DNA from: Vavraia culicis subsp. floridensis
Taxonomy: Eukaryota; Microsporidia; Pleistophoridae
Length of the DNA stretch: 64,000 bases
Reading direction: 5' to 3'
NCBI RefSeq assembly: GCF_000192795.1
Contig: NW_007360613.1
Coordinates: 78,876-142,875 of the forward strand
The position numbers and the translations under genes were made by a program. Within the stretch, counting starts at the first letter, position 1. Every line of letters begins with the position of its first letter. Below are positions 520 through 64,000 of the stretch, one piece after another. A model generated the notes under the pieces. That model was not told the origin of the DNA. It saw nothing but the letters and a program-made list of their open reading frames with translations, and did no database searches.

Positions 520-1425
520 ATGGACACATTTTTCGTAGTAGGCAATTTGGTACGTGTACTCGTCATTTGGTCGCTAGCTTTCATAGTTTACGCGTTGATA
601 CGGTCGATATTTGCTGCATTTTTCTTAGAGATAGCCAAACTTAACTATTACATGCCGTGCAACTATGATCCAAACAAATTTATCAGACACATTGATGTTC
701 ATGGAGATGAAATTACTGTAATTGATCAGTTCGATAGACAAGAAGTTGTGAAGAGCAGTGCAATCGACCAGGTGTTCCAATATCCTACATCATACAATAT
801 TCAGTACGAAAAGTCTATAAGAGCACTGTTATTCTTCCGTAAAGCACCGTGTTTATTTCCGGATAAAGTGGTGTTTCTAAAACATGAACCGCAAAATATA
901 CACGGATTAAGCTTCGTAGATCTCTGCCAGACCATAACTAATGAACGATACTCGGTCAATGATGTGACATCTTTTAAGACGCTTTTCGGTTTCCTAGTTT
1001 ACGGATTATTGGATGGATACGAAATACAGATCCATAGTAACTGCATTCTTGTGGTATTTGATGGCATGTACCTGTTCTGTGTACAAGTTGATGATTGCTG
1101 TCAATACTTAGGAACAATACACGTGGCATGGAGCTATCCAATCGTGTTAAAGGTTGATCAATCGTTTTTCAGAATGGTTATAAGCACAGAAATTTATGTT
1201 GGAATGGTTTACAAGAAAATAGTTAACATCAAGCCGCGGAATTTTTGGTTCGATGAAAGGTTGCAGAGTGAAGAGCTTAATAAAATATTTGGCTCGTTGA
1301 TTTTTACATCTTGTGTGGATCAACTACCCGAAACAGAAACAGACTACCTAAATAAGTGTATTAGCCAATCACAAAAGGTTAAAGAATACCGAAAAACTAG
1401 TAGCGATGAGATTTACGATCTGTAG
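520..1425 (+). CDS. Orphan protein with N-terminal membrane anchor
   Basis: A 301-residue protein I do not recognise. Residues about 5-38 are strongly hydrophobic and make one membrane segment or uncleaved signal anchor. The rest looks like a folded, mixed alpha/beta soluble domain with scattered cysteines and a charged C-terminus. The ATG at 520 is supported by a CCC triplet six bases upstream and a TTTTAA about 30 bases upstream, the pattern of the intracellular genes here and not of the secreted ones. It may therefore be an ER or other endomembrane protein rather than an exported one; that is inference. It has no operon-like neighbour and reads forward into an 867-base gap. Confidence 0.7.
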   Translation: MDTFFVVGNLVRVLVIWSLAFIVYALIRSIFAAFFLEIAKLNYYMPCNYDPNKFIRHIDVHGDEITVIDQFDRQEVVKSSAIDQVFQYPTSYNIQYEKSIRALLFFRKAPCLFPDKVVFLKHEPQNIHGLSFVDLCQTITNERYSVNDVTSFKTLFGFLVYGLLDGYEIQIHSNCILVVFDGMYLFCVQVDDCCQYLGTIHVAWSYPIVLKVDQSFFRMVISTEIYVGMVYKKIVNIKPRNFWFDERLQSEELNKIFGSLIFTSCVDQLPETETDYLNKCISQSQKVKEYRKTSSDEIYDL

Positions 1426-2292
1426 AAGGTGGTTTGAAGTAACTGATGGAATCAAGTGATTATGTTTACATTTGGCATAGATTCTACGTAGATGAATATT
1501 ATATTACATGTTTGTTGTAACGGTCTCAGGTGGGCCCGTGACCGCGATACCGGCTTGTTAGACCATGAGCAAGGAGTAGTTCTGAATTGTTACTTAAGGA
1601 GAGTGCTTTATTCAATGGTGATATAGGAGAGTAATTATTTCAACAGCAGTATAAACAATCGCTCTACGCAACATTCATATGCGATCACTAGTCACAATCC
1701 ATTCACTAACGTTTAGGCACTTCTAATCATTGGTTCAGATCGCAACTTCTGCCATAACAAATTGTTATAGCAGGTGAGCTTAGCCACGATTTAAATTATT
1801 TTAGTGGAAGTACCTTTTTAAATAAATATGTTTGAACAGTTGCTGAACGTAAATAGTAGTGCGCTGAATTACGGTGCTGATACTAGTAAAACACTTGCAA
1901 TGCTGGCACCGCAATCAATTCATCGCATTTATTTTACACGCTTAGAGAGATCAATTTAAAACATTTGACTTACTAAAACCACATTTATTTATCCCGGGAA
2001 AATGGCTAGAAACGGAATAAATTGGGTAACTGTAAAGGAGGAATGTCATATATTGAACATATGCATGAATATTTGCTTCAATTTTGAGATATAATTGGTC
2101 TTTTAAGCCTTTACCATAAATATGATCGCCATATCATACTTTAATTATTTTTATTTACTTATTCACTAAAGCTGTACAACGATACGGCCGTACAGAGGTA
2201 CGCTTTACGATCCGTTAGGTCGCTTTAAGTCGCTGGAATGCGTTACAGCGAAACCCTTTCCACAATTTCAACTCTAAATTCGCTGGCCCTTG
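1426..2292. other. Intergenic; contains a GC-rich foldable block
   Basis: No protein-coding gene is seen. Around 1517-1593 there is an unusually GC-rich block, for this AT-rich DNA, with nested complementary arms (GTAAC/GTTAC and GGTCT/AGACC). The remainder is ordinary AT-rich spacer. The last 20 bases hold a CCC triplet just before the ATG at 2293. Confidence 0.5.
1517..1593. ncRNA. Candidate structured RNA (weak)
   Basis: GTAAC at 1517-1521 can pair with GTTAC at 1589-1593. Directly inside, GGTCT at 1522-1526 can pair with AGACC at 1560-1564. The enclosed part is GC-rich and contains GGGCCC, unlike its surroundings. I find no tRNA boxes and no match I recognise to snRNA, SRP or RNase P RNA. 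The pairing could be chance; the call rests only on composition and two short helices. Confidence 0.15.
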
Positions 2293-2825
2293 ATGGACAA
2301 GGACAAGCGGATAGATGATTTGATTTTAGAAATGAGAAACATCAACAAACTAAACTCAGAACTACTTGAAAATTAATTAAGGAGAAGGACAGTTTGGTAT
2401 CGCAGGAAAAGCTAAACAACAATCTGCGAGAAAAGGCGGAAAGTCTTAGAAAAGAAAACAAAAAATTAAAAAATGATATAGTAGGGAAGAACAAAGAGAT
2501 ATTGAGGATCAAAAAACACTCTGAGGTGGCAATGAGAAGAATGGAGCGTGATCTGGCAAGTGAGCAATGTCCAAAAAAGCGCAAAGAACACAACAGGCCA
2601 ATCGATTACGAGCAGAAAAACAAAATACTTGAATCATTACTCTTCCTTCTCGGAAAAAAGTTCCAATTTGATGGTGAACTGCTGGTTGATGTGTATAAAG
2701 TGGTGAACAATCCTGATGATGATTTTTTGAGATGCCTGGTAGATTCAATCAAGGATTCGCATGATAACTATGTTAAGATGAGCCGAATAGAGGATGAAAT
2801 AGAGTTCAATTTGGATGATAGTTAA
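2293..2825 (+). pseudogene. Coiled-coil protein gene with a -1 frameshift
   Basis: Two reading frames join into one coiled-coil protein. An ATG at 2293 opens a 27-codon frame ending at a TAA (2374-2376). The next frame is open from 2370 to 2825 and carries on the same heptad-like, Lys/Glu/Leu-rich helix. A shift at the AAAA run around 2369-2372 would connect them into about 177 residues. The first half is coiled coil; the C-terminal part is acidic and mostly helical. The ATG has CCC six bases upstream, like the other intracellular genes, so this is the true start of a real gene. Function unknown; it could be a kinetochore, spindle-pole or trafficking coiled coil. The shift may be a sequencing error in a homopolymer, a recent pseudogene, or programmed frameshifting. 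Confidence 0.55.
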
Positions 2826-3654: not shown

Positions 3655-4925
3655 GTATGAGGGTCACCGGATTTCAAAAATTTTTTATTTGATTCTGAGT
3701 GGCAGAAAAATGGGAAGGGTGCTGGTGTCCATGATATGCTCCATGGTGTTTTAGCATTGCTTGTTTTATTTTTATAACTAGAAAGTGCAATATTTGTACG
3801 GAATGTTAGTTACTTTACTCACCACAGGAGGAGTGTAATCTCTTTGTTTTATACTCCGCGTCTATTCAATGTTGTTTAGTGGCTGAGTTTGAACCAATAA
3901 TGGGACGGAGCAGATACTTACCTTGAACTGAGATGAACGACCGGGGTATACCACTGTTTTTCTGAATGTTGACTTATTCCGGGGTATTTCTTGCCCACAA
4001 ACGCACAAGTCCATTGCCAAGTTATGTTACCGATCATGGTTGTATCGCCATGACCAATGACTACTTACCGTTTTTTAGCATGTTTTCTTGTTCTAAGCCT
4101 TGTGTATGGTACATCCATCACAACCATTTGGTACTGCGGTACAAAATGAATTAGTTCAAGATTTACTCCCACAAATTGTTTATACAGGTGTAATAGCACG
4201 TTAATTGTTATTTATGACCTACGAATCTTCATTACTGTCCAATTATAGATCAGTCTTCAAGTTGGTGTACTAAGTACGATTAGTTGTGCTATTGTCAAAA
4301 CTACACGTAAACCATGAGTGTGTGATTATGAACAGCATGTGAAGCGATATAAAATATCTTTAACACGGCACTTTGACCTGACCTTGCTCAAAACCACAGT
4401 GTAGTGCTCTCTATTTTTGTTAGAGAAAATAGCTGATAATAAAATTGTTTTACCAATACAACATGTACCTCTGATTACCTCGTATATACACGTTTTACAT
4501 GCTTTCTTTCTTGTAAAACAAATATTCCGATGAGATAATAACTGGATACGTGATTAATTCGTTCTAACGTGCCATCTTATCTCCTAGTTTCAAAATTCCT
4601 AAGCGTATTCATTAAAGCTGAAAGTATAATAAATAAACACTGACGTATGCTTTGATTTATGGTGCAATCACCTAGACAGATCATTTCCTTCCATGGTATA
4701 TAAAAAAAGAAACAATCCTGCCGGTAAGCTCAACTCAACACGGTTCTGCAGGCCTTGAGTAACTCCAACCTCTACTGACGTGTTCATATCAAAATACACT
4801 TGTGTTCTCTTATGTAGCCTAATTCGAAACACGTAATGATCGTGCATAACACATGTTCACGATAAAACAAATATGCCAATTGGTTACATATCTAAGTTAA
4901 AAGAATTTTTTTTCGAGGCTCTTAT
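3655..4925. other. Intergenic, nothing recognised
   Basis: About 1.3 kb of AT-rich spacer. A 62-codon frame at 3966-4154 has no supporting element. The right end holds the TATA-like box of the next gene. Confidence 0.5.
4897..4903 (+). promoter_or_regulatory. TATA-like box of the 4926 gene
   Basis: TTAAAAG begins 29 bases before the ATG at 4926. No CCC triplet lies in the 40 bases upstream, which is the pattern of the secreted genes in this window. Confidence 0.5.
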
Positions 4926-5552
4926 ATGTATATCATATGTTTAGTCGCACTTGTTCACTGTTCAAAAAAATTTCATCGCTATTTGATAAAATCCTACGAT
5001 AATCGAAATGCACTTATGAAAATGAGCATGAATTTCAACGTCAGAGTTACTGAGGAAAGTTTAAATGCTCCTTTTTTGTCGGATTCTGTGGTAGCAGAAG
5101 TTGAAGAAGTTCAGAAAATTTTCGCAAAAATAAAAATGCACGGCATGTATCTGTGCAAATCGGACGAAAGTAGCAACGTGATGGGACTGTCTATTTATTC
5201 AGAGGACAATTGTCTTTGGAAAGTAGATCCAATCTCGAAGGATGGTGGCGTAATGCTGAAGATAGGAGGAAACTTTCTGGTAAAAACAGGTGAAATGGAT
5301 AACAGAGAGTCCTCACAAGGCTACAAATTGAGATTGGTGCCATTCGCCACGGCTGATAATGGTGGGTGGGTCATGGAAAAATATAGACCATACAGGAATG
5401 AGGGAACCGACAAAGATGATGTTTACTCCAGTTCGTCCGATAGTGATGATAGCGACAGCGAAGCGGAACAACCACCAAAGAAAACCAGTGTTATAATAGG
5501 CGTGGAGAAAAAGTTAAGACCCGACGAAAAGAAGAAGTACCATTTAAAGTAG
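4926..5552 (+). CDS. Secreted beta-trefoil (ricin-B-lectin-like) family protein
   Basis: A 208-residue protein with a short hydrophobic N-terminus (residues 1-12) that looks like a signal peptide. The middle (about 90-180) repeats the family pattern seen at 7103, 9661, 14139, 33762 and 35944: a buried 'LCK' strand, an acidic turn, then a 'W-x-V' strand, again 'G-x-x-LVKTG', 'D-x-RES', and a final 'GGWVMEKY'. This spacing fits the three-lobed beta-trefoil of ricin-type B-lectin domains, known in microsporidian secreted proteins. The classical QxW triplets are not preserved, so sugar binding is uncertain. The C-terminal 40 residues are a low-complexity Ser/Asp tract followed by a Lys-rich tail, unique within the local family. 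There is no toxin catalytic chain. Likely exported to the host or spore surface (inference). Confidence 0.6.
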   Translation: MYIICLVALVHCSKKFHRYLIKSYDNRNALMKMSMNFNVRVTEESLNAPFLSDSVVAEVEEVQKIFAKIKMHGMYLCKSDESSNVMGLSIYSEDNCLWKVDPISKDGGVMLKIGGNFLVKTGEMDNRESSQGYKLRLVPFATADNGGWVMEKYRPYRNEGTDKDDVYSSSSDSDDSDSEAEQPPKKTSVIIGVEKKLRPDEKKKYHLK

Positions 5553-7102
5553 ATGAAAATTTATGTGACCTTGTTCATAGGTTTGGTATGGTACTATCTA
5601 TAAAATGTATTTTTATTGTATTTGCTCAATTTAAAGAAGATGCAGCTCTGTATCATATAACATCACAAACAGTTAATTTTCAGGTTTGGTACGTACTTTT
5701 CTGAAGCGCAAGACAGCTCTTGTTGTTAGTTTTAATAAAACGTTAGTGGTTACGAGTGAATATTATCTACAAATTTATATCCAGAACAAATCAAGTTACC
5801 GGCCATAAAACAGTTTCAAAGCTTATGGTTTCCATTGGCAGAGAATTTTTCTACCAATAATCACAACTTATGTTATAACACGTTATATTTGAAGTAGCTT
5901 TGATTCAATCGGTTCGATGTAGAAATAAAAGTTGGAAAGGTTTGTGTTGATAAACCGGTGATAACACCGTAATTATGCGCGAATATGTTCACAATGACTA
6001 GTCCTTGGTATAAAATTCATTTCTAATTCAAAATTGTAAACCATCTCTCGTACGTATGACCACTAATAAACACAAAAAGGCCCGTCTAACACGTGGTAAA
6101 ACCAATAAAATACCGTAGATGCAAAACGCATCAAGGATGATACTTCCGTAATTCGTTTCAAGATGATAGTTAATTCAGAGAAACCTACTTCGAGAAAGAA
6201 AAGGATCAACGATGCAGTATGCTTTGTGAAAACACTAAAGACCTAAGATAAACATTAAGGCAATATTATGACATTTTATAGTATCCAGAACATGCAATTT
6301 TTCATTTTAATTAATGTAATATTAGTTTTTATATTTTGCTTCACCTTAAAGGTTGGTCCAAACTCTAATAAATCGGTAATGATCCACTGCTTGATCAGTA
6401 GGTACGGACTCGTGAATATCTGTAATACATCCAATATTAACACGTTGATGATTGCTTTGAAATATAAATAATTCTTTCGTTTTGTCCGAAGAGGTGCTTA
6501 AACAGTACTTAGTTTATGATTGGAAGGCTTGACTTGAGGACAATTTGAATCGAGAAAACGAGAGTAGTGAAACATTAAATTTGAAAATGTTATTATGGTT
6601 GAACTTATTAAACGAGGTAAGGCAGAAATACGTAGACTTTTAGGAGTAAGAATAGACTTGTTACCAATTTTTACGAACAGCGGTTGGAGAAAATACATAA
6701 GGGAGCGTAAGGTCATGTTGTTAATTAAGGAAAGAGCTCAATACACTTAATCTCTAGTGATTGTGTTGCTTTGGTAGGCAGTACTTTTACGTGGCAGATA
6801 TAATGCTACAATATGATATATGTGCGACGCCACGGTCTAAAACACGACCACAATCATAAAATTTACCTAACCGAGGTAATATACCTGCTGAAAGTATACC
6901 AAAATTATAAACGTAGGAAAAGTTTTGTGCGTAAAAGCATTCTTTGATTTGTACACAGAAGAATGCCCTTAACGATATGCAGTGATTTGTTGAGCCATAA
7001 CACCGAATCATGGTTTGCTACACACCAGCCAAAAAAGCCAATATTGAACGCAAATCATGGTTTATTATATTTCTAATAAATTGCAGACAGAGCTTACTGT
7101 TT
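5553..7102. other. Intergenic, nothing firm
   Basis: About 1.5 kb. A 67-codon frame at 6268-6471 begins with ATG and contains a hydrophobic stretch, but its upstream region has neither a well-placed TATA box nor CCC, so I leave it uncalled. Two minus-strand frames (6498-6716, 6787-7011) show no domain. Confidence 0.45.
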
Positions 7103-7801
7103 CTAGCCACCTGAAACGAAGCCTCTGTGGTAGTGTGGTGTCACTTCTTTGCTGTAGTACGGTACCGCCTCTCTGCGGTAATAGGCCACTGGTTCTTCGT
7201 ACGCTTTGTATGTCTCGATATGATCCAAATCACCAACCATAAGTGTGCTTGGCTCACTCACTTCTTCCACATCACGTTTAACCTTCATCCTATTGCCCTT
7301 CACTTCTAAGGTGTCATCAGATGCATCCGAGCTTTCATCAGCAATCTTCAAATCATCAATGATCCATTTAAAAATCTTTCCACTACCGCACGATGCAGCA
7401 TTCATATAGAAACCACCCGCTCCAGATCTCTTGTCTTCACTCATCTTCTTCAAGCACAGGTTGCTCGTTTTAATTTGGTAAGCGTCGCCATCTCGTACCA
7501 CATCCCAAACTGTGTAAGGATCGTCCTTGTTGTCGCAAATTTTTAACCCAGGATTTTTGGCATTCTTGCACAAGTAACCGTTTTTGTATTTGATTCGGAA
7601 AGTGGTGATTGAATTAGGAATGAAGTACGCAGCAGCTGTGTCATCTTTCGATTGCGGTGTTTCCTTGTTTTGAATCCTAGCAACACCTTTGTCGAGTGAA
7701 ACTTTTATATTAGGATCGCCCTTCCAGGATATCACCCTATAAACCCCCTCACCTTCATCTGCAACCACGAAGTTTACTAGAAAATAAAAGAACGAGAACA
7801 T
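7103..7801 (-). CDS. Secreted beta-trefoil (ricin-B-lectin-like) family protein
   Basis: The frame is open further upstream, but the ATG at 7801 is preferred: it gives a clean signal peptide (about 14 hydrophobic residues ending near VVA) and lies 27 bases after a TATAAAAG. The 232-residue product has the family layout: 'KYKNGYLCKN', 'VWDVV', 'SNLCLKK', 'FKWIIDDL', i.e. alternating LC and W strands typical of a beta-trefoil core, at about residues 30-160. After it comes an acidic stretch and a Tyr/Pro/His-rich C-terminus with repeats of the type 'PYY-x-K/R-EV', absent from most paralogues. The closest local relative is the 9661 gene. Probably secreted; ligand unknown. Confidence 0.65.
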   Translation of the reverse strand: MFSFFYFLVNFVVADEGEGVYRVISWKGDPNIKVSLDKGVARIQNKETPQSKDDTAAAYFIPNSITTFRIKYKNGYLCKNAKNPGLKICDNKDDPYTVWDVVRDGDAYQIKTSNLCLKKMSEDKRSGAGGFYMNAASCGSGKIFKWIIDDLKIADESSDASDDTLEVKGNRMKVKRDVEEVSEPSTLMVGDLDHIETYKAYEEPVAYYRREAVPYYSKEVTPHYHRGFVSGG

Positions 7802-7820
7802 GTTGAAACGTTCGTTTTTT

Positions 7821-7828
7821 CTTTTATA
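7821..7828 (-). promoter_or_regulatory. TATA box of the 7801 gene
   Basis: TATAAAAG on the minus strand begins 27 bases before the ATG at 7801. This spacing recurs in other secreted genes and argues against the more upstream in-frame start at 7903. Confidence 0.6.
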
Positions 7829-8729
7829 TTTTTGTTTTGACCTACGGATTAATAAAATCTGAAACTGATCAGTGTTAGTATTTTGATCTTTTTGGTAGCT
7901 CATCCACCTAATGACTGTGCAAAATCGATGAAATATGTTTCAGAGCTGAAACTTGTGCAACATCATTTTTAGGCTACAAGAAGAAAAACTTTCGTGTTGC
8001 GTTGATATGGAGTTATTGAGAGTAACAAGTGATATGTTGGAATAATGCATCGTGCAAAATGTTATGTAATGCTGTCATAGGGCACCACCAGAAAAGATAC
8101 GCTCAGGACCTGCTTTCTATTCTCATTTCCTACGAGAACATTTCATCTTCACCGGCACTGAGTCGAATAGTTCAATGTTTAAATCCAATTAAGATTTGTG
8201 AATCAAGTCGATCAAAAAAAAGAATATGAATGGTTCCAAAATTGTTCTCAATATAAAAGAATATATTGAATAAATTTAACTTGGTTCTACAAAGAATATT
8301 CTATACAAGGTATTTGGAACTGTACAAATAAGTTTCATGGAACTAAATAATCTCTTATGTGAACATTTATTGGTCAGGTATTCAAAACATTTCCTCATTT
8401 TTACATTTCTTGGTTGTGAAAAGGCTTGCTATCATACAATACCACCATTATTTTGTGTGCATTTAAATTTGCTACGCGATACCATTATAGCAATTTAAAA
8501 TTTTTATGTTTTTCAATTTCTAAAAAAGAAATTGAAACTTATCTCTATGGTGGGCTGAGCGATGTGTAGACGAGGAAGAAGCTGTGTACACCGGGATGTT
8601 TTATATATGGCATAAGATTCACAATTTTACCAAATATTCGCATCTATCTTTTTTGAACAAAGTACGTTTGTTTAACCGCAATATAAAGGGACGTGGTTTT
8701 ACAGTAATTAGGTATTGAATATAGCTGAG

Positions 8730-11444: not shown

Positions 11445-11835
11445 TAGGGTTAGCGGTAAAATGAGAAATTATCGTGCGGCGGTTCATTCCACGTGATTTT
11501 GTGCACTTAGGTATGTCCAAATGACCCTCAAGATAGTTGCGGTACGAATTACACAATCGTAAATATTTCAAAACGATCTGTTAATTGTCCTGCCATGTCT
11601 GAAAGTACCAAAAATAGTTCTGCTTTCCGTAACGTGCAGGACTGTGGTAACACCGTAGATCGACGAGAAAAAGTATTTTTTGAACCTTTAACAACTCAAT
11701 AAAGATTCTAACTCGGAAAATGGGCATTAGGGCGATCAACGATCAGAGAGAAACCACCATGTGCATCTTTTGCACCGTGCCATCCGTATCCGCAACACAG
11801 TTATAAAAATTTTATGATTTACCGATTGCCCTTTA
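11445..11835. other. Divergent promoter region of FHIT and RSA4
   Basis: 391 bases separate the two divergent start codons. CCC triplets lie next to both: AACCCT before the FHIT ATG and GCCCTTTA before the RSA4 ATG. A TATAAAA starts 34 bases before the RSA4 ATG. Confidence 0.55.
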
Positions 11836-14119: not shown

Positions 14120-14138
14120 ATGCATATGAACGAACAGC

Positions 14139-18653: not shown

Positions 18654-18672
18654 ATCGGCGTACCCATACATA

Positions 18673-21288: not shown

Positions 21289-22999
21289 ATGTGAATTGTT
21301 TTTATGTTGTCCCTATCTGTGAGAGTTCGTGTTTGGATCAGATAATTTGTTAAAATAAAAATATGTTCATATTCCGTACGATATGTTTGTTGGTCCTTTT
21401 GTCCATTTTTGCAATTTCTGAGGAGCATCTTAGGATAGATCTGTAATTTACGTGTTTTATTATCATTTTTGCCGTAGGTGCGAATTTGTGTGCTGCGGAT
21501 CAGCATTATATGTTCGATACGCGATATAATGCTGGTTCCGAAAGAAAAAGAGAGACAGATAGACCTCCACATAAGGCACACACGTGCCGAGTATATTTAA
21601 TTGGTTAATCGCTAGGTTACAGAGAATTAGTTTTACCTGGACATTCCCGCGAAGAAGAATTCCTCAGGGTGTTCTTGCGAGGAGATGTTGCTCAAGTTAC
21701 AACTTGCATGTAAGATCATTGCTGTGTTGAGAGTGCGAGTTGGCATGCTCAACTCCCTATGGATCTAAAGTTGCGTGAATAATGATTGGTCCCAGTGAAC
21801 CAAAAAATGTATTTGTTTAGACGTTTTTATATGAAGAAAAAGCTTATGATGAACATGAGAGGATGAGATAAATAAATGTAACGTTAGTTGCAGAAAAATA
21901 TGAGACATGCTAATTTCAACAAACTGAAAGAGGAGTTTTAGACAAAGGCATAGCCCATTATTGTGCAGGGCAGTAAACGTCATTGGTTCATAAATAGTAC
22001 ATTAAAGCTAAAGTTCAGAATTAATTTTATTTCATTTTAATGCCTGTAATTTACACTACGATGTGCACAAACACATTTTATTGTAAATTTATGAATAATT
22101 TACCAAGAAGTGGTCACTTTTATATGTTTTGATCGGTGATACGCTTTTAAATTTGTTGTGTTGGGGATGTACCTTCTCTGTTCAGCACGTACTATACCCA
22201 TAATAAGTATGTAACACATTATTGGCAGCTTTTGGAAACGATTTTTTTGGTTCTCATTTTATACAGGAAAATTATTAAACTTCTTTGAGACCTGATTTTT
22301 TAATTGATTGGGTAATTAAGAACGGCCTTTTTAGCTACTTTTAAGAGAAATATGACAATTATGATGGATGATAAATGAAATAAAGGGGGCGCACCTGGTG
22401 ATAATGAATTAAAAGAATTTGCTTGTGCGTGAAGTGTTTTGTCCATGTGATGTAAGGTTTTACACGATGTAATCGAGACATGGTATACCATAGTGTGGGA
22501 AAGAAGCATCAATTTCTATCGGTTGAATTGAACCAGATCGTATCCGAAATAAAATGCTATTCGTGAAATACTGTGAACAGACAGACTGATTGCTTCTGCA
22601 TGGCGAATTTAATGGTAAAGTTCTAGAAATGATCATGTACTCGCTGCGGTGCATTGTAAAAGCATTTTCCCACCTGGATTATCAGATATTATGTAATAAT
22701 CACTTCAAATTTATTCGTACGGATCACAAACTCATTTGAATCTCACAAATTTATCATGTTGATACATATTTAATTAAATACACGTGTACTGCAGTTCTCA
22801 ACGAAATTGCTGCACTACTAGCGATAGCATTGCAGACATTTTCTGCGTATACAAACAAATTGGTAATAAAATAGAACGAAAATGTGTGAAAAACCATTCA
22901 ATTGATGATTGTGCAATTTTTGTTTTGAATTGATCATGATCCCGCAGAATTTGTGGTGATAGATTGTTAGCAATTTAAAGGACAAGGAAATGAAAAAGT
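21289..22999. other. Intergenic, nothing recognised
   Basis: About 1.7 kb with only short chance frames (for example minus-strand 21765-21983 and 22300-22512). The right end holds the TATA-like box of the next gene. Confidence 0.5.
22974..22981 (+). promoter_or_regulatory. TATA-like box of the 23000 gene
   Basis: TTTAAAGG begins 26 bases before the ATG at 23000; there is no CCC. This matches the secreted-gene pattern. Confidence 0.5.
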
Positions 23000-26365: not shown

Positions 26366-28044
26366 CAGAACAAAAGCACAGGGATCCCTCAATTTTGTTA
26401 TCCCTTTTCTGTTTTGAGCTCCTTAAAAGGAATCAATTAAAAATTGGTACCGGATAAAACGATATCACTGGTTAGAAGTGCGTATGAAGATGTTTTATTT
26501 AGTAATACTTGCCGAAGAAAATACCTTGTTAACATAAAAAACATTTTTAATAGGAGATGTGTTTTCGTAGTCTTTGCTGGCCCAGATCTATCAAAGTATG
26601 TATACTGCTACGTTCCATCATGTAATAATGCTAATATAAAACTCCTCATTAATTTGTTGCCAGTCAACGTACAATCATCAATAAAAATCCTGTTAATTTC
26701 TACAACACAACTGCACAATCACCATGTGCTAAATCGAGCGTGTCACTGCAGCAGATATTTTACCAGCTGTAAAAAACATTCAACGTATTAATGCCGCCTC
26801 ATTACCCCGTGTTCATTATTATAAATCTGAAAATATCATAAATGCCCATGAAAGACGAAAGTGTTTTAAGTGTCCTAAACCTTAAAACCTCACCATTTAT
26901 ACCGGATACAAACCACAACATTGCCCATATTTCTATAACGTGTTATTCCTATGCCCTAATCAATAATTACCTTGTCTAATGTTTTGATTACACCCCACAT
27001 CACTACAACAGCCCAAATACGTTTGCCAACCTTCATACCCAAATCAAACCGTGCCTACAACATGTACGTTTGATTTGAGGTACAACCGAAATGGTAAGTA
27101 AATTTAATTTATTTTTACCCATGCATACTTCCGCTCAGGTAAAGCAATGCGTAAAAACACATACATTGTACTAATCTTGATTGTGGCATGCTCAGCCGTA
27201 TCCACTTCTATACGCTACTGGCACGTGTTACTAAAAATACGTTATACGAACATAAAAAAGTCAAATAAATTGTTATTTAGCGTGTCAGCAACGGAAGTAT
27301 GAATTTAGAAATAAATTTTTTATAAAAAAAAGAACATTTGCACAACGAACTACAAATCGGTAAATGACCCGTTTTGTAAATGGTATGAAAAGGCTAAGCG
27401 GTTAAGATCACTTGGTGGTTGTTCCTCTTTTCCACGATCATGATATTACTTTTTTGACCTATGGTATAACTGTTGTTTGAAATGGTAATTTTATTTAATA
27501 TGGTGTGAGTAAGTAATAATTTTAGCAATAACATCACATAGCGAAAGAAAATAAAAGTATATTTTTTACTGGAAGAATTGTTTTAACAAGTGCCACAGCT
27601 AAAATACTTATTACTATTTTTGTATAGTAAATGTGCATTTATTTATCTCTTCATACAACACACCCAAACAAACTTGCTTACACATGAATAAAAATAGCTG
27701 CCACACCAACGCAATCAAAAAGAACAATTTTTATCAAAAATCGTTCATTTATCACGATGCTAACTGTAAGCATATTTTACTACCGGGATCGAATTTTATA
27801 TAGATCGTTAAAAACGACTTTTCTGTGTTAACAGTTCTGGAATCATCATTGTATAGAATAATAAAATGAGGTTCATGATGAGAGAAATTATTTTAGTCCA
27901 TAATTCTTCTTCTGAAAAAGAGTGCTTGTCCTAAGATCGAACAGATTTAAATGTAAACTACGTTTACAACGATAGGAATGCAACCACTGCCAGACTGAGG
28001 CTAAAAATCGTAAGATAATGCAACATTCTGTACTTTGTGTTTAT
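26366..28044. other. Intergenic with a long hairpin
   Basis: About 1.7 kb. The only notable item is the inverted repeat at 27036-27081, listed separately. A 115-codon frame at 26444-26791 has no ATG near its start and no recognised domain. Confidence 0.5.
27036..27081. repeat. Long imperfect hairpin in gene-free DNA
   Basis: CAAATCAAAC at 27040-27049 pairs perfectly with GTTTGATTTG at 27068-27077. After a single unpaired A, TACC (27036-27039) pairs with GGTA (27079-27082). The loop is 18 bases. It could fold as RNA or be the remains of a short transposon. Confidence 0.5.
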
Positions 28045-29130: not shown

Positions 29131-30949
29131 GCCATTCTCAATCAAAGCATATTTATGTTTTATTTTCAAATCGTTCTAGAACGATTACGCATAATTTTCT
29201 CAAAACAGTCAAATTTGCTCCTTTTCACAGAAAGTACGTTTATTTAGCTCTTCATGTCGCAACACCTAAACAACACATCTTTCTCACCAGCACTTGTCAA
29301 CCACTTGTCGCCTTAGCCTCTGCCAGCGGTCCTTGCTCGCTCTGCAACTTCTTAGCACAACGCATTCATAAACATGCTCTATACCACTATAAATTAAAAT
29401 TTGGTTGTGTAACCGCCAATCAATAACAACTCACCATAAAGCCTTAAAAACACTTTTTCTGACTGCATTAAGCATAAAAATGTGCTTGTAATTTACTAAT
29501 AGTGGAGTTAAAACTTAAGAATGGTTAATTTTGCTCTTAAGCGAGAAATACAGATGTAACGTTTATTTCCTTGGAAATTCGTTTAGTTAACAGAAAATAC
29601 CCTACAAGTTCTTTTAAGCACCTGTCTGGTGCTAATCTATTCAACGGGGATAGAATATTTTTATCGAAACCGGAAAAGCGTGTTTGTTTGGATGATGTGG
29701 TACGAGAGATAGACAAGCATTCTGTAAAAAAAAATTATTCCCATCGTGGCAAATTTAATTTAAAATAAACTGCGGACTTTCCACACAAAAGAATATCCAC
29801 TTAATTTGAAGTAGGCCTGTGACCTTACTTATCACTTTGGATGTGATGATACGCATTTATCAATTCTACGGTGTAATAGTGCATTAAAACATTTTTTGCT
29901 CATCTGTCACACGAAATAAATTATCTTTTCTGCCAATCATATCTTATAGGACTACCTGTCGTAGAAGCAATAGCGTGATATTTTATACAAAGGTATAAAA
30001 GATAGTGTGAACAAACCATGAAACGTTGAACTGCCGCATCGTATTCATTTACACACCAGAACCGTGAAATATTGCAGAGCTGACACGTGATTAAGATGCT
30101 TTTTTGATAAGCAAAATGTTCATTTTTTCAATTTAATACCTTTTTGGAAAAATATAAAATTGGAAATTCTACTTCCAACACACCGGAATGTCCTAAATCA
30201 ACCACAGCGATATGCAAAAAAATTATTTATGGCTCTAAGCGGGTACACACCGACCAATTGTGTTAGACAACGGTTGAAAGATTATAAAATCATTTTTGCA
30301 GGCAGAATAGAATGTAAGCTACTGAGAATCTCATACCAAAGCACTGATCGGTAGCTTGTTACGATTATGAACGATAAAAATGGATTACAGCAAATTTTAT
30401 TTTTGAATTACAAGGTCCTTTCATACAGCGATACGAAAGGTACACGCATCTCCATTCGTGCTCGCGCATGGTGTTCGTTGCCGAATTAGTCCAATACTTC
30501 TTATTTGACCTATGCAGGTCGTACCTAGTTTTGAACACGATTTGATCTGCCTGTTCTAAGATTATTTTATTTTGGTATCTGCTTTTCTATCAAAAAATGT
30601 GCAAACCTAAATTTGTCGATAAAAAGCATATTTTATTCACGTGTAGTACGCAAATACCATGTAGTGACCGTGCCGTATTGAATACTGCTCTGCACGTGTT
30701 TTGAGACCGGTTAGTTTTGGTGATTGTCGTTCTCTGTCGCTTATCGCTGTTTGTTGCCACAAATAAAACCGTACCTGCGTTCCTCTTATCTCCTCTTTGT
30801 TGCCCGCGCTTACCGGCAGCTTTGTTCACCAAAAGCATGTTTATTTTCTGATCGGAAATTGCTGTGCAAAATTTTTGCTATAAAATTTATTTATCGTTCA
30901 AAATCCGTAATGTTTGTTCAGAAGCTTCTTTTAAACCCTTGAGTTTGCA
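29131..30949. other. Intergenic between divergent genes
   Basis: About 1.8 kb. Frames at 29571-29768 and 30160-30354 both begin at TTG, lack a start-proximal element and show no domain. The right end holds the YAK1-like promoter, TTTTAAACCC, with the CCC 14 bases before the ATG. Confidence 0.5.
29148..29156 (-). promoter_or_regulatory. TATA-like box of the 29130 gene
   Basis: ATAAATATG on the minus strand begins 26 bases before the ATG at 29130 and supports this start over the upstream TTG. Confidence 0.5.
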
Positions 30950-33626: not shown

Positions 33627-33735
33627 AAAGCGCTTTGATACCATGAACAAGTACCGAAATGGGCTGCTCAAATGTACTTGATTCATTAGCCTGCTCATTT
33701 ACTAATTACATTCAATCATTCGAAACATGATAACC

Positions 33736-33743
33736 TTAAAAGG
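33736..33743 (+). promoter_or_regulatory. TATA-like box of the 33762 gene
   Basis: TTAAAAGG begins 26 bases before the ATG at 33762; there is no CCC. Confidence 0.45.
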
Positions 33744-38385: not shown

Positions 38386-39623
38386 GTATTCGCAACAGAG
38401 CCATGCTTTTAAATTTACTTATCAAAATGTTCTAGACCTAAATAAGATTGTGCTTTAAATACGAATACACCAAATACGTGTGCACTTAAGCGTATTCATA
38501 TGATAGTATGCTCACATTGGTTCGAACATGCATTTAATTACGTAAGTTGTGTAAACATCTTAGCTGTTAGCAGCAGTAGCGGATAATAAACAGCGAAAAG
38601 TTCTATGCTACAAAATTATGGTGTTATTTTCAACAAAATGAACTTGTTCATTACAAATACCCTATTTTACAGCTATTTTTGCATACCTGCCATTAAACTG
38701 GCGTTCCTAATTGAGCACAGATGACCGCTTATCACACGATTAGGCAAATTCATATAGAAATTAGCAGATGGCATTTTCAGTCAGCTTTTCATTGCTGTAA
38801 TATAAGTTTACAAACATAAAACGGTTATTTTCTCTCACAAAACATCCAAATACATAGAGCGGCGCATATTAAGAGTTTACTCGTCTCCACGACAAGGATG
38901 TGACCGGATGAAAATTCTTTCTGCCCTGCCAGCCTATTCATCGTGTAGAAAACACGTATTAGAATCGGTACCTAAAATGTAAATAGCAACGGTACGTTCA
39001 CCTATTGCCCAGTTACACCTCACCGCACGATGCAACAGCAATGGAATGTGCACACTTTAACCTAAATACGTACAAAATGTGGTATAATTGTGTTTTGGGA
39101 GATTCTCCGTTAATGTGAGCAATATGTGAATTCATTTGCTACGCCAGTTTTAATGTTGCTTGGGAAGATCGCTTCAAGGGTAATCCTACCATCCGTGTGG
39201 ACATGATTTAACGGTATCGTTTGGTTTAGCATGGAGGTAGCACTGCCATCAGCTATCTAAACGGTTTGGAGATCGGAATGTGGTTTATTGGTGATCATTC
39301 AATACAATCATTGGCAGTTCTTTATTCTGTCACGTGTTGGATGCACAGCAGTATTCCGGTAATCACTCGTTTATTGCACGAAGAACGCATTCATCTGTCA
39401 CCTCACGCTTGACATAGAAATCGTTTAGTATGCGACAAATTGTGGGCAATTCCCGTAATCACATCCATATTCGATGAAGAGAAGCCTAGGATGAACTTTC
39501 GTGAGCTAGCAAAGATATTACATGTTCCATGATCACTGACATGTTCTGAACTGTGTATCAGGCACGTATCAGCTCTTGACCACCTTCTCATTGCAGGATT
39601 TTTTTTCTATTTTTTTAGTTCCC
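38386..39623. other. Intergenic between divergent genes
   Basis: About 1.2 kb. No gene or repeat is seen. The last 30 bases are T-rich and end in TTCCC immediately before the next ATG. Confidence 0.5.
38406..38413 (-). promoter_or_regulatory. TATA-like box of the 38385 gene
   Basis: TTTAAAAG on the minus strand begins 28 bases before the ATG at 38385. Confidence 0.5.
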
Positions 39624-40583: not shown

Positions 40584-40900
40584 GCAATTGTACGGTAGTG
40601 CTGGCGGTAAAAACGGTAAGGGCACTGCACGCTGCTGAGTGCTAGGATTGCATCATGGGTCATATTTCGAATAAATATTAATTAGCTGCACGGGTCAAGG
40701 CAGCACAAGAGTTGATCAGGCCGTAAATGTTGAATAGAACGAACAGATTGCTTTTGTGCCATAGCACCTATCAAATAACATTTATGTTTTTATTTCACCA
40801 AGCGTACATTTGGTCGCCCCCTCATACCGCAGCACCCAAACGCACCGTGGTAGGTCGCTTAGTTATTAAAACACCCTTTACCACGTGTTTGCAGCCCTTC
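40584..40900. other. Intergenic / SNAPC3 upstream region
   Basis: 317 bases. The SNAPC3 frame is open back to an ATG at 40727, but the segment to 40900 encodes no conserved part and probably belongs to the 5' region. It contains TTAAAACACCC and, just before 40901, GCCCTTC. Confidence 0.5.
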
Positions 40901-44644: not shown

Positions 44645-45278
44645 GTACATGAATGTGTCGCGTTATTTATATAGTACTTTGCATGAATGCATAAACGAGC
44701 ACAATTTTTTGCAACTTCACTTTTTATGAGACTGTCGGTACGGCACCAGATAAACTTCTATTTTTCACAAACACTGGTGCTCGTCGACAAAACCCATTTT
44801 TAACAGCCACAGCGCATCACGAGTATCGTGATGAATGCAAAATAATTAATTTGAGAGTGCGCGTCTTTTTGTCATCTAAGAGGAACATGCGCATCAAATT
44901 TACAGCTACTCATCATAGCACATCAATAATGTTTGTGGTAGTGTAACATGCGCCTTGTGCATGTTTGATTGAGTTGTTGGCGCGCTGAGAAATAAAAATT
45001 AAATGGTGCACACGAACATGGCCTGGTGCAAAGCACATCCCAACTGCTAACCAAGTTTACCGTGCACTCCGGTAAAAGATGCATAAAGTTGCGCGTTATT
45101 GTCACCCGTGCTTAGTTCTATGGGAATAAAATAGTTCAGACAGGAATTAGGCCAATGGGCTTGATGACCTACCGCGTGTTTAGTGCGGTCATGGGTGTGA
45201 TTGACCATTCGAATCGTTTAATAAGATCTTTTGGTGCAAACATCGGCCAGCAGTTCGTTTAAAACAAATTTTCAAGTT
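44645..45278. other. Intergenic, nothing beyond a promoter
   Basis: About 630 bases between the TATA-type promoter of the membrane protein and the stop of NBP35. No gene or repeat is seen. Confidence 0.5.
44664..44671 (-). promoter_or_regulatory. TATA box of the 44644 gene
   Basis: TATAAATA on the minus strand begins 27 bases before the ATG at 44644 (21 before the alternative ATG at 44650). Confidence 0.6.
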
Positions 45279-46139
45279 TCATTCACCCAGCTCAGCCCGA
45301 ATATTCTGCGCGATATCCGTGAACAGACCGTCATAGATCAAACCACTATCAGCATGCATACCCACCATCTTTGTACACTCCATGCCGCCCAAATATCGTA
45401 TATTTCTCGCCATGCATTCCGTTTCCACGCTGAGTGTGCCCATAGGCACTCTGCACCCACATTCACACACAAATTCTTTCATATTCTCGATCACTCCCAG
45501 CACGCCAATCCGTGCCTTCTCACAGAAATCGATTTGTCTTGCAAGATCATTCATGGAGAGCACGCTCGGCGTTGTTACGAGCACGCACGACATTTTAAGA
45601 TAGTTGGAAATGAACAGGTGCTCGTCTGTGATACCCGGCGGCGTGTCAATCACGATGTACGTGTAGGCGGTAAAATCGCAGTTCCTGAGCACATCAAGCA
45701 AAAACTCATTTACGAAGGATGAGTCATCCAAGTACTCCAAGCAATTGCCATCATTGGCGTGATACGCGCTCACAACACCCATATCTGTGCCTTTCACGCG
45801 CACGGGCACGAACTTGTCCCGTACATTCGTTATGATTTCATCTTCTGTGCCGCTCATCTTTGCAATGGACGGTCCGCTTACATCGAAGTCAAGCACACAG
45901 CAGCTCTTCAGTGCGTTCGCTATCATCATGCACACTGTACTCTTACCGACTCCTCCCTTTCCGCTCATTACGGCCAATATTTTCTTTCCATCCACGTTTC
46001 GGGCAATTTGAGATTTGTGAATGTGCGTATTATCGGTCTTCTGCTGGCAGTACGTGCTGTTGGGACAGGATGCACATGCTGGTGCCTGTCCTGCACTGTC
46101 AGAATGTATTCCTGGGCACTGTGACATGGGGTTCCGCTC
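45279..46139 (-). CDS. NBP35: Cytosolic Fe-S cluster scaffold ATPase NBP35
   Basis: A 286-residue Mrp/NBP35-type P-loop ATPase of the cytosolic iron-sulfur assembly (CIA) pathway. The N-terminus carries the exact NBP35 cluster motif CX13CX2CX5C ('CPGIHSDSAGQAPAC-x2-C-x5-C'), which separates it from Cfd1. The Walker A is 'SGKGGVGKST', followed by 'VLDFDVSGPS' and 'YIVIDTPPG'. At the C-terminal site where NBP35 normally has CPxC, this protein has 'VCECGC', a different Cys spacing. The start is uncertain: ATG 46139 (MSQCPG...) follows CCCC directly and gives a human-like short N-terminus; ATG 46184 would add 15 Cys-containing residues. NBP35 delivers Fe4S4 clusters to nuclear and ribosome-associated proteins such as Rli1. 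Confidence 0.93.
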   Translation of the reverse strand, partial: ERNPMSQCPGIHSDSAGQAPACASCPNSTYCQQKTDNTHIHKSQIARNVDGKKILAVMSGKGGVGKSTVCMMIANALKSCCVLDFDVSGPSIAKMSGTEDEIITNVRDKFVPVRVKGTDMGVVSAYHANDGNCLEYLDDSSFVNEFLLDVLRNCDFTAYTYIVIDTPPGITDEHLFISNYLKMSCVLVTTPSVLSMNDLARQIDFCEKARIGVLGVIENMKEFVCECGCRVPMGTLSVETECMARNIRYLGGMECTKMVGMHADSGLIYDGLFTDIAQNIRAELGE

Positions 46140-46832
46140 TGGCATTCGAATTTCAACGCATGGGCATGCGCATTTTGGTACCATTTCGTTTGTCAAGTGC
46201 CACCAACGAATGCATCAGCTGTGTGTGGCAGACAGAGCAAAGTTTTTTGAACCTCCTGTAGCGCTACACAAAGCATTAGCAGTTTTTACGATTGATGAGC
46301 GTATCGTGGTACCGTAAAATGAAAAATGTACTACTGCATCACTTTTTACGCAGAAAAAAATGTTAAATCGCTGATACCACAAATTTTATGCGATTCCCAA
46401 CAAAAATGGTCTTGCCGGTCCGTTTGTTGCTCCTGGCACGATCAAATAATTTACTCAGCGCTACAAATGCACGCTGTGTTCGTACTGCGCTATTTCTTGT
46501 GGTACCTAGCCGGAAGAGCAGTTCAATTGAAATGAACCGTTCTCTTGAAGAGAATCACGCTTTGTTCCACATAAATTTGTGCAATAGCACAGATACAAAC
46601 ATTTCCTGCCGTACTGTCATAAATTTGGGCCGCTCAGCAATCCTTTCCTCGGCCAAGGGAAGAATGTTGAACTGTCTGATGTGAATAGTACGCCTCATAC
46701 ATGTAAGTGCGTTTAATTCGTTGTAGTACGATGTTCTATCTGGTGTTGACATTGTAGGATCGCTCTTCAACGCAACTTGGCCATCTTTGACCGGTGTATA
46801 ACGAATTTTAATTTTTAACCCAGAACCGCAAA
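46140..46832. other. Divergent region between NBP35 and BMS1
   Basis: About 690 bases. The BMS1 side shows TTTTAA at -27 and AACCC at -14 relative to the ATG at 46833. No other feature is seen. Confidence 0.5.
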
Positions 46833-52341: not shown

Positions 52342-53555
52342 TTGTTCGAAGGGAGCAAAAATTTAAAATATTTATTGTAAATTTTTTACAAACCGAGTTT
52401 TAAACGTAAACTTGGTTAAAAGAGCGTTTCTAGCACAGAAGTGCAGCATTACACGGCAATTTGCGCAAAATGAACATTTTTGTGCTATTTGCGGTCCTAT
52501 TACAGCGTAGCGTAATATATAGGGGATAGCAAACTTATTCACCTGAGAACGATGTTCGTATTGATGTATAGATGGTATATCAGGTCTATATAACAGATTT
52601 ATTTGACCGAATGGCTTCTTTGGTGTGATCCAAGCGTAAAATTTGTGGTATGCAGTTTATAATAAATTATGCGCTCCGTTCACTTTGATATATGTCATAA
52701 AATGAACGGGCCTGCGTCGTTCCTTTAAGCACTCCAAGCATCGATGCGCAGCTTGCTACACTAAAATGGACACAGTGAAAAATTCTAGTATTGTATCCGG
52801 TAGATAAATGTTCTTTGCATGTTAAAAATGCCTTGCATGCCATCCTGAGCAAATGCACAAGGCATAGCTTAACTTATCTGTTATTGGTGCCAAAGAATTT
52901 TATTAAACGTGCTCTAAAATAATCTGCTTGCCTTTCTTTACAGACCAAACTTGATTTTCCTTCGATCAAGTTCATATCTCAGATTTGCTCTCCTTGCCAC
53001 TGCAGAGGAAGAAACCTTCACAAAGTCTGCTTCATGTGAATGAAATACCGAGTAAAATTATCATCATTGTGTACGACATTTGCTTGGAAGCAACACTATG
53101 GCAACATTCTGCAAACCTCAATCCAGGCTGCAAGCATAACCTTCTGTTTAAGAGAGACACGATACTTGACGCAAGAATAGCGTTGAAATGTGGTATTGGC
53201 AAAACTAGCAATCTTCTTACCGATAGCGGTCAGATGCTTTATCTAGAAACACTGCTTGCCATATAATCACATGGTACTCATATCAGTTAAGTGTTTGATC
53301 ATAATTAAAGAAAATTATTGTTTGAAACAGGCACACAAACTCGTATACAATAGTTCCTGAAAATATACCAAGTACTTATATATCACGCTATAAACTCCTT
53401 GCAGCTGCTCAATATCTGCTATTGATAACGTTCTCTTGATACTTCCGCTCCTAGTACCAATCGGTACACAAAGAGAAAATGAGCGGTTCATTTCATTGCA
53501 AAACTGTGGTAGAATTTTAAGACTTTAAATTTTTTAAGCCCTTTGATCCCCACGG
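52342..53555. other. Divergent region between CRM1 and the EDC4-like gene
   Basis: About 1.2 kb, with promoter elements at both ends (TTTAAA...CTCCC for CRM1; TTTTTTAAGCCC...ATCCCC for the other). The middle holds nothing I recognise; the frame at 52985-53266 starts at TTG and has no domain. Confidence 0.5.
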
Positions 53556-57361: not shown

Positions 57362-58264
57362 AAGCCATTCTTTCATGGTGCATTTATACTTTTATTGTGA
57401 TATACTTGCCTTGGATATCAATAATGATTGATGGACGATGTGAATGACACTTATATCAATGATAAGTTATACATAGGGCCTTACTAGAGTAGTGAGAATG
57501 TGTGTTTTTGTACTCCTAAAGCAGAACAAATCTGAGCTTTCAATAGCGATTGTGATTGCTGTTGGATGTGATATAGTCTGGTATTGATTTCGACAGCCAT
57601 CTCGTAAAACGTGAAAAGGATGAGAAGATGGCATTGATAATGTTTCTATAAAAAATATTTTATTGTTTTAGTGACTATCTTATGTCAAATAGAATATAAA
57701 TTTGCCTAAAATAATAAATAGATCAACATTTTACATAAAAATATCAGAAAAATACATGTTTCGTCTTTATAGATCGTAACATTTTTTCATGCATAACTGA
57801 AAACCATTTGTGATACTTTGGTGTTGTAAGTAGTTACCAACCAAGCATTCTCTCATGGCTATCATGCAAACCATTATTACTTGATTGGGACTGTGATATT
57901 ACATCAAATACAAGGCAATATATTGAATTGATTAAACGTTATATCAAAGGAAATAGAATATTTTATTGTGTTAAACATCAACTATTATCCTAATATAGCA
58001 ACATGAAATATCAGGTGTGGGAAAATTGATTATTAGTTAGCACCATGAAGTATAGGATTTAGTGTTCATACGGCAAAAAATTATATATAGTACCTGAGAG
58101 ATGCCATCATTACCAAAGCATTGATGTTGTTTATACATACGATATTTACCTGATACTTTTATTTTAACTATTATTATTATAACATCTTTTTAATCCGTTT
58201 ACATGAAAGAACCACCAATTGCAAGCATCTCGTGTATCCAAACACTTATCTCACAGACTGCAGA
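57362..58264. other. Intergenic, AT-rich
   Basis: About 900 bases of very AT-rich DNA between two tandem paralogues on the minus strand. No gene or repeat is seen beyond the promoter at the left end. Confidence 0.5.
57382..57388 (-). promoter_or_regulatory. TATA box of the 57361 gene
   Basis: TATAAAT (within AAAAGTATAAAT, shared with the next gene) begins 27 bases before the ATG at 57361. Confidence 0.6.
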
Positions 58265-58900: not shown

Positions 58901-59388
58901 ACTTGCCATATTGGTCGTATATTTATACTTTTTCACTTGGCTTATCACGTCAAAGAGATGATAGTCGTATGATATACTAGAATACATTGCAGGACACTTT
59001 GAAAAATTGTGAAACAATGAGTTGTGCTGCAGTGTGTACCAAACCAATTGGTGTTTGTTGATGAACTATACAAGTATCGAGAGCAATAGTATCATGTTAT
59101 AGTCTTGCTAAACATACTAGGGAGTTGTTTATAAGTTACTCTTTTTTGCATCGTCGTGACAAGATTATATGTAATTTTTGTACTATATTTATGACATATA
59201 TTACGATAAGAGTGATTAAGATGTGTAAATAAACCATACTTCTACAGTATAACTAGCTGCACTATCCCTTTTTTCAAAACGGGTATATGAATGGATAGTA
59301 TATCAATCAGCGCTTTTGAATGTGACTAGGACATCAGGTCATTCCTTTCTACTAACTGTTCTGTGGTTACAAAATCAATAAATCACTT
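58901..59388. other. Intergenic between secreted gene and Helitron remnant
   Basis: About 490 bases. The 3' terminus of the Helitron should lie here if it survives, as a CTRR end with a nearby hairpin. A CTAG occurs near 59324, but I could not confirm an adjacent hairpin. Confidence 0.35.
58920..58927 (-). promoter_or_regulatory. TATA box of the 58900 gene
   Basis: TATAAATA (within AAAAAGTATAAATA) begins 27 bases before the ATG at 58900; the neighbour at 57361 shares the AAAAGTATAAAT core. Confidence 0.6.
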
Positions 59389-63505: not shown

Positions 63506-64000
63506 GAGAACCACAGAATTCTTTCCTTTTATAGTTTTAAATTTGCAAAAATGATAAGGAAATTCATTCTTATCGGAGCGTGCTTTTTGTCCATCTCACA
63601 TGTGAACAGTCATGTGATTAGAGGAGACTGTCAGCATTAAATTATGAATTTGTTGACACTGACAATGCTGCTGCACACATTTTTACAAGTTTAGTGTGTT
63701 CTTTTCTTGTTTATGGCATCGATCACCAAAATAGGCCTGTTTTTCTCGTCAATCTGTTACATAAAATTATAAACTAGTTGTTTGTATGAACGAAGTATTT
63801 ATGGTCAACACACTGTTGTTAATTGTGTGAACTTCGGTATGATGCAAGAATATGATAATGGAAGAATAAAAGTATTGTTAAGTGATCAGTACATTGCTGT
63901 TAAACACATATTTTGCTTTTGATCAGAAAGCTCATATTGTAATTGTGTTGATCTACCTCACGAAAAGCTGAATGCTACATTACAATATGCAATTATCATA
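63506..64000. other. Right edge, promoter of the LRR gene only
   Basis: About 500 bases. Apart from the TATA box at 63526 I see nothing. Confidence 0.5.
63526..63533 (-). promoter_or_regulatory. TATA box of the LRR gene
   Basis: TATAAAAG on the minus strand begins 28 bases before the ATG at 63505; there is no CCC. Confidence 0.6.

Follow-up and report, generated by a model that had tools for sequence, protein, structure and literature searches.

Background

Upstream of microsporidian genes, two short elements have been described. A C triplet motif near the ATG is reported for Nosema ceranae gene models and for most Encephalitozoon cuniculi genes (PMC2685015, PMC2803860); the figures given for other species are CCC at 977 and TATA at 194 genes of Trachipleistophora hominis (PMC3486916), an ACCCTT motif at 37% of Nosema apis genes (PMC3726280) and a C-triplet motif at 1,439 of 3,172 Spraguea genes (PMC4948709). 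Among 280 conserved genes of N. ceranae, 12.5% have TATA between -25 and -32 (PMC2685015), and E. cuniculi 5´ untranslated regions (UTRs) are given as shorter than 7 nt (PMC2803860). Here we follow both elements through 64,000 nt of Vavraia culicis subsp. floridensis (positions 78876-142875 of contig C10; this whole stretch is called the window below) and through the whole assembly of 5.63 Mb in 80 contigs. The layout of the two elements is associated with the signal sequence of the gene product: genes whose ATG follows a TATA box at a distance of about 27 bases, with no C triplet, mostly encode proteins that start with a signal peptide or anchor.

The C triplet found here resembles the described motif in lying on the sense strand, at most about 15-20 bases from the ATG. 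The difference concerns its distribution. The passages on the motif treat it as general and name no genes that are without it, whereas here genes with signal sequences form one group without CCC. The TATA box is the same element at the same distance of about -27 as in N. ceranae and T. hominis (in the latter the position is conserved), but the passages on these species make no link to secretion, while here TATA without CCC is tied to signal sequences. Both elements are known and only the split by signal sequence appears to be new; our literature search, with supplements outside it and absence hence unproven, found no report that links TATA-only promoters or missing CCC to secretion, and a term search of PMC3879972 and PMC3749934 gave no match.

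The window encodes eukaryotic proteins (ribosomal L11/L12 type, exportin, Sin3, Tsr1/Bms1, hexokinase), whose closest named relatives are proteins of T. hominis, with 64% identity for gene 10344 and 63% for exportin (over 60% of the query). Judged by these matches, the window is microsporidian and kin of T. hominis. Rfam at gathering cut-offs yields no match in it. According to the original prediction, CCC before the start codon marks genes of intracellular proteins and is missing from genes of secreted and multi-pass membrane proteins. It caught half of a pattern that is real, but picked the wrong element: many secreted genes have a TATA box some 27 bases ahead of the ATG, which the prediction left out.

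TATA boxes and signal sequences

Together with the window, 25 stretches of 10 kb gave a sample of 175 non-overlapping open reading frames (ORFs) of at least 90 codons. Filters for length, coding score and edges kept 112 of them, 84 outside the window, where starts were set mechanically to the first ATG of the ORF. TATA distances are counted from the first T of the box to the ATG. With TATA called by a position weight model from 8 other loci (described below), a hydrophobic N-terminus is present among the 84 outside genes in 6/7 with TATA and no CCC, in 1/5 with both elements, in 4/38 with CCC only and in 6/34 with neither. The TATA-only genes thus differ clearly from the rest (6/7 vs 11/77, p=0.0002), and the comparison gives p values of 0.0002-0.014 in all 12 of 12 cut-off combinations. 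Further, hydrophobicity correlates with the TATA score at 25-29 bases (rho 0.33, p=0.002); at 50-54 bases rho is 0.05.

The same can be seen with a simple motif. In window and sample together, with starts at the first ATG, T[AT]TA[AT]A occurs at 25-29 bases in 10/25 genes with hydrophobic N-terminus and in 6/61 other genes (13 and 8 when hits are counted), and outside the window alone in 9/17 vs 4/45 (p=0.0005). The neighbouring bins 20-24, 30-34 and 35-39 each contain it in 0/25 genes with hydrophobic N-terminus, which makes it a box of TATA[AT]A type at a fixed distance from the start. If each start is instead placed at the in-frame ATG that gives the best signal peptide, TATAWA precedes 5/11 signal-peptide genes and 7/73 others (p=0.007). 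A k-mer enrichment over the 200 bases upstream of genes with hydrophobic N-terminus gave nothing convincing.

Independently of gene calls, we searched the whole genome for TATAWA N18-28 ATG followed by a free codon and four NTN (hydrophobic) or NAN codons, with the reversed pattern as control. The NTN version has 57 matches vs 29 in the control and the NAN version 40 vs 51 (p=0.004), and TATA stands 27-28 bases before 22/55 distinct ATGs with NTN codons, compared with 6/39 where NAN codons follow (p=0.012). One of the matches is the TATA site of window gene 58900 (C10:137759-137802). Across the genome, plain TATAAA N18-28 ATG shows no enrichment (1976 matches vs 2221 in the reversed control), so the genome-wide TATA signal appears only with hydrophobic codons.

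From these lists, and from those of a pattern with ACCC N1-14 ATG, we drew random places: 20 each for TATA-NTN, TATA-NAN and ACCC-NTN, and 18 for ACCC-NAN, where 2/20 were dropped as tandem duplicates on C53. ORFs that stay open for at least 110 codons and have an upstream stop were found at 10, 5, 2 and 5 of these places, respectively. A signal sequence begins 8/10 of the TATA-NTN ORFs by eye and 6/10 by script cut-off; in the former eight, TATA lies at distances of 26, 26, 28, 27, 28, 27, 28 and 27. CCC is also present in 2 of these eight (L037, L042) and in 4/5 TATA-NAN ORFs. The ACCC lists contain a few repeated places, namely a dispersed repeat and the tandem copies on C53. As a side observation, ACCCCTTACCAAATATGCAAAT recurs with near-identical continuation at four places (C6, C17, C20, C64) and is probably a dispersed repeat.

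In the window, T[AT]TA[AT]A is found at 26-29 bases from 7/14 starts of secreted and 2/14 starts of non-secreted genes in the original lists. We also scored these starts with the TATA position weight model. It was built from 8 ORFs at other places of the genome (none in the window), which were picked by eye as beginning with a signal sequence. The model splits the lists with medians of 6.1 for secreted and -0.2 for non-secreted genes (one-sided p=0.0004), and at the control position -61..-50 the lists differ little (p=0.056).

One might suspect that all this is an artefact of start choice and chance. Three of the original starts (40901, 46139, 39624) were indeed chosen partly with the help of CCC and are not independent. 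Neither are the 14 secreted window genes, because there are paralogues among them: blastp groups 4926/7801/10344/14139, 29130/38385 and 57361/58900, so that the 14 would represent at most 9 families (33762 was outside that comparison). Nevertheless, the association survives mechanical starts outside the window as well as pattern counts free of gene calls, by which an artefact is largely refuted and very hard to credit.

C triplets and protein destination

Outside the window, CCC lies at -20..-1 of 36/61 genes for proteins without signal peptide or membrane segments. Further upstream, the region from -100 to -21 of the same 61 genes was divided into four bins of 20 bases each, and 22/244 of these bins (9%) contain it; CCC is therefore enriched over local background within about 15-20 bases of the ATG. 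The measured background, at a C content of 18.9% in the window, agrees with the earlier estimate of roughly one in nine for about 17% C. The 11 signal-peptide genes outside the window have CCC in 2/11 at -20..-1 and in 7/44 upstream bins. It follows that CCC is enriched at non-secreted genes, while secreted genes are near background and not unusually depleted. An AAATTT-like box was considered as a companion of CCC and dropped, being not clearly commoner at non-signal genes (18/61 vs 6/25).

In the 84-gene sample, when starts are set by the best signal peptide in frame, CCC within 20 bases precedes 2/11 signal-peptide genes and 39/73 others (p=0.049). The association proposed for the window thus reaches beyond it, with exceptions on both sides, and the perfect 14/14 split is not general. 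The two signal-peptide genes with CCC encode multi-pass proteins, one HlyIII-like (L019 5766) and the other Erv26-like (L023 7476). Soluble genes outside the window have CCC before their first ATG in 33/55 cases and lack it in 22/55, although some of these starts look miscalled. For E. cuniculi the motif is said to precede almost every gene, which is not what we see here.

In the window itself, CCC was said to stand 3-18 bases before the ATG of all 14 non-secreted genes, and it does so at 13 of the 14 given starts. The remaining one was given as 46139 on the minus strand, where no ATG stands. CCC lies 3 bases upstream of the ATG at 46127, and the longest ORF begins at 46184. Absence of CCC from 40 bases upstream of the 14 secreted starts holds without exception (0/14; 23000 has one at 59). 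A rule in which CCC marks intracellular proteins and its absence secreted or membrane proteins therefore fits 28/28 listed window genes after one start correction, and the contrast of 39/73 vs 2/11 outside the window also agrees with it. We nevertheless hold such a rule to be very improbable. It leaves 22 of the 55 soluble genes unexplained and is at odds with the CCC found at several conserved membrane and endoplasmic reticulum (ER) proteins.

Conserved proteins and gene history

We inspected starts of conserved families at 12 loci; at one (L110) the start was not reached. CCC precedes three HSP70 genes (one of them likely BiP), both NTT ATP/ADP transporters, a Sugar_tr gene on C27 and two thioredoxin-fold genes, where the HSP70 on C36 and the thioredoxin on C51 each have several candidate ATGs, and the one preceded by CCC does not come first. 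CCC is missing from a Sugar_tr gene on C11, from a PDI-like gene, which has a signal peptide and TATA alone, and from a subtilase (L116), whose frame leaves the edge of the locus and whose start is uncertain. The labels BiP and PDI are likely ones, derived from family match plus signal peptide. The likely BiP combines signal peptide, TATA and CCC. Outside these families, CCC is also found at an acyltransferase gene with predicted membrane segments (L009 8133). Secretion or multiple membrane passes thus do not preclude CCC: both NTT, Sugar_tr of C27, HlyIII-, Erv26- and acyltransferase-type genes and the likely BiP carry it. Grouping of multi-pass with signal-peptide genes as devoid of CCC, as originally proposed, fails in its multi-pass half for conserved proteins.

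Another possibility is that the pattern reflects history and not regulation. Young, duplicated, lineage-specific families would have inherited the TATA-only promoter of their founders and would be secreted by coincidence. The three paralogous groups in the window are in line with this, as is the lack of a Pfam match in 6/7 TATA-only genes outside it, and families specific to T. hominis and V. culicis are described as rich in signal peptides (PMC4654818). However, the signal genes outside the window share no mutual similarity at E<=1e-3, and conserved enzymes (trehalase, the PDI-like protein and a UCH-domain protein) also lack CCC and have TATA or TTTAAA. Moreover, soluble genes without Pfam match carry CCC as often as those with one (10/17 and 23/38), contrary to what history would suggest. 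We thus regard this explanation as rather unlikely. Pfam scans were run at E<=0.01 for one set and E<=1e-5 for another, and the comparison of Pfam match and CCC omits 3/73 non-signal genes (L025 9067, L026 2421, L026 3451).

The same figures of 23/38 and 10/17 rule out conservation as the driver of CCC for soluble genes. The corresponding contrast for hydrophobic or membrane genes (CCC in 3/6 with Pfam match vs 1/9 without) became 1/4 vs 3/11 once the PRKCSH_1 and Bap31 matches, which are below the Pfam cut-off, were moved to the group without match, and it was not used. The layout is set neither by destination alone nor by conservation alone.

Two of the conserved enzymes deserve a separate remark. 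The trehalase gene (L018:5151-7175, minus strand, 437.6 bits) has a short signal peptide, a TTTAAATA-type box and no CCC. The UCH gene in the window (23000-24040, plus strand, 48.8 bits) encodes an N-terminal hydrophobic signal, has no CCC within 40 bases and is a candidate for a secreted deubiquitinase. For V. culicis, trehalases with secretion signal and secreted ubiquitin hydrolases are mentioned in PMC4435813, and these match the genes seen here.

Possible mechanism and its consequences

We suggest that V. culicis probably uses two core-promoter layouts, TATA-only for genes with signal sequences and CCC for most others. In the CCC layout, a C triplet stands 3-18 bases before the ATG of many intracellular genes, conserved or not, and of most conserved membrane proteins examined. 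It might work in the manner of an initiator close to where transcription starts, which would make a strong TATA unnecessary. In the TATA-only layout, the first T of a TATA box is about 27 bases before the ATG, there is no C triplet and the products mostly start with a signal peptide or anchor. TBP would bind the box and RNA polymerase II would start at the ATG or within a few bases of it, resulting in near-leaderless mRNA. Initiation at or next to the ATG would follow from the position of TATA 27 bases above it and would match the 5´ UTRs of less than 7 nt in Encephalitozoon.

Several observations weigh against these two layouts. As many as 34/84 genes outside the window match neither, and TATA-only genes compared with TATA plus CCC genes alone (6/7, 1/5) do not differ significantly (p=0.07). 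When TATA-only genes are compared with the rest at the shifted positions 35-39 and 50-54, no p value falls below 0.05 except 0.028 at one loose cut-off among the 12 (50-54). A looser TATA-like pattern precedes 5/11 signal-peptide vs 14/73 other genes (p=0.11), and best-site scores within -33..-22 for 11 signal-peptide vs 61 other outside genes give a one-sided p=0.11. The ACCC pattern has 54 matches vs 39 in the control for NTN and 62 vs 31 for NAN, which is the right direction but not significant (p=0.29); in the ORF-confirmed TATA lists, CCC is found in 1/6 hydrophobic vs 5/9 other ORFs (p=0.29). Signal-sequence genes with CCC do exist (likely BiP, L007 3894, L037, L042 and L047), and so do those that have no strong TATA box (the subtilase as well as genes 14139 and 42720 of the window). 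Finally, the signal-peptide score is home-made and the whole analysis covers one genome at the level of sequence. The smallest description that fits, and our best reading, is TATA-only for signal-sequence genes, mostly without Pfam match, and CCC for the majority of other genes; neither rule is free of exceptions, and a large class of genes has neither element. The pattern would refine known promoter elements for a single genome, and we consider this moderately supported.

Since CCC lies near the ATG and E. cuniculi 5´ UTRs are that short according to PMC2803860, it could alternatively be a translational signal, helping initiation on cytosolic ribosomes from a very short leader, with mRNAs for signal-sequence proteins using another context. 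With such leaders, though, much of the range of 3-18 bases falls outside the mRNA, and a TATA box fixed at -27 is a feature of transcription. Hence there is little to recommend this idea, and we find it highly unlikely.

Yeast promoters reportedly fall into TATA and TATA-less classes (SAGA/TFIID), a dichotomy associated with Basehoar 2004, which PMC2685015 cites. The likeness would lie in two core-promoter classes with TATA in a minority of genes. The difference is that here, as far as the sequence tells, the split follows signal sequences and the C triplet takes the place of a TATA-less architecture. Genes of ADA2-like (L017:1708-2715, plus strand) and TAF9-like (L008:8281-8691, minus strand) proteins indicate that parts of SAGA/TFIID are present in V. 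culicis, which is relevant to such a dichotomy. By analogy with TATA genes in yeast, the proposed split might allow secreted genes to be regulated jointly.

The yeast parallel also speaks for another explanation, namely that TATA-only genes are stage-regulated (spore or infection), CCC genes are constitutive and secretion is just a correlate. TATA plus CCC is found at the likely BiP gene, two tubulins and thymidylate synthase, as could be expected in this case, yet the PDI-like gene is TATA-only although constitutive expression would be expected for it. Such an expression programme is a serious possibility, if short of an even chance. The class with both elements also contains a weak, below-cut-off match to eIF2B-epsilon and the signal-anchor gene of L007, and its existence suggests that the two elements are separable. 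Returning to the two layouts, their boldest form would be a secretome under its own promoter class (TATA at -27, no C triplet), whose near-leaderless mRNAs are switched together in infection or sporulation, with the C triplet as housekeeping initiator that makes expression constitutive when added, as at the likely BiP gene. We offer this form as a speculation that is doubtful at present.

Microsporidia are hard to manipulate, and their secreted proteins evolve fast and are unrecognisable. If the proposed layouts are true, then candidate host-exposed proteins could be listed from DNA alone by a short promoter layout, even without homologue. There may also be consequences for annotation. MicroAnnot takes Glimmer-predicted coding sequences without expected signals and moves their start to an ATG closely preceded by signals, strongly A+T-rich upstream DNA being counted as a signal too (PMC10815200). 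Shifting of starts to CCC could clip signal peptides from TATA-only genes. Further, the split might partly answer why the C-triplet motif reaches only 37-45% of N. apis and Spraguea genes, and it gives a model, open to testing, of how a strongly reduced eukaryote chooses its promoters.

Promoter elements in the window

TATAAA precedes five secreted window genes, all on the minus strand. It is located 27 bases before ATG 7801 (7823..7828, score 11.2; a signal-peptide gene without CCC), 44644 (44666..44671 within TATATAAA, score 7.6; a multi-segment membrane protein), 57361 (57383..57388, score 12.1) and its paralogue 58900 (58922..58927, score 11.3), and 28 bases before 63505 (63528..63533, score 9.4). 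TATA-like sites are CATAAA, 27 bases before 29130 (29152..29157, minus strand, score 7.9), and TTTAAA, 28 bases before its paralogue 38385 (38408..38413, minus strand, score 7.7) and 26 bases before the UCH-domain gene 23000 with its N-terminal signal (22974..22979, plus strand, score 2.3). Six of the 14 secreted genes (4926, 10344, 14139, 33762, 35944, 42720) have only weak sites with scores from -0.7 to 4.7, among them CTTAAA 27 bases before 33762 (33735..33740, plus strand, score 1.8).

Four paralogous signal-peptide genes span 4926-14756, with starts at 4926, 7801 and 10344 (the latter two on the minus strand) and 14139. One of them has a T. hominis homologue that bears the name ricin B lectin domain-containing. 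Three of the four were scanned against Pfam without a match, and a search with Pfam Ricin_B_lectin was likewise without match, as was its control, which renders that search uninformative.

On the plus strand, CCC is found at 514..516, 6 bases before membrane-anchored gene 520 (also at 11 and 19), at 2287..2289 before gene 2293, at 11829..11831 before the WD40 gene 11836, at 18663..18665 before the Sin3-like gene 18673 (TATA-like also at 27 and 29), at 30936..30938 before protein kinase 30950, at 46819..46821 before the Tsr1/Bms1-like gene 46833 and at 53549..53551 before gene 53556 (with further copies at 8 and 17). Genes 39624 (CCC at 39621..39623) and 40901 (40895..40897) belong here as well; both starts are among those chosen partly by CCC. 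On the minus strand, CCC lies at 3661..3663 before the ribosomal protein L11/L12-type gene 3654, at 11447..11449 before the HIT-domain gene 11444, at 26381..26383 before hexokinase 26365, at 46128..46130 before ATG 46127 (given as 46139) of a NUBPL-type P-loop NTPase gene and at 52351..52353 before the exportin-1 gene 52341 (TATA-like at 26).

Two of these genes have unusual frames. In gene 2293-2825 (plus strand), the frame of the CCC-preceded ATG stops after 27 codons and a second ORF covers 2532-2825, which may be due to an intron, a frameshift or a pseudogene. The SNAPC3-like frame 40727-41623 (plus strand, 25.2 bits), possibly a subunit of the snRNA-activating complex, has its first ATG at 40727 and its CCC-preceded ATG at 40901.

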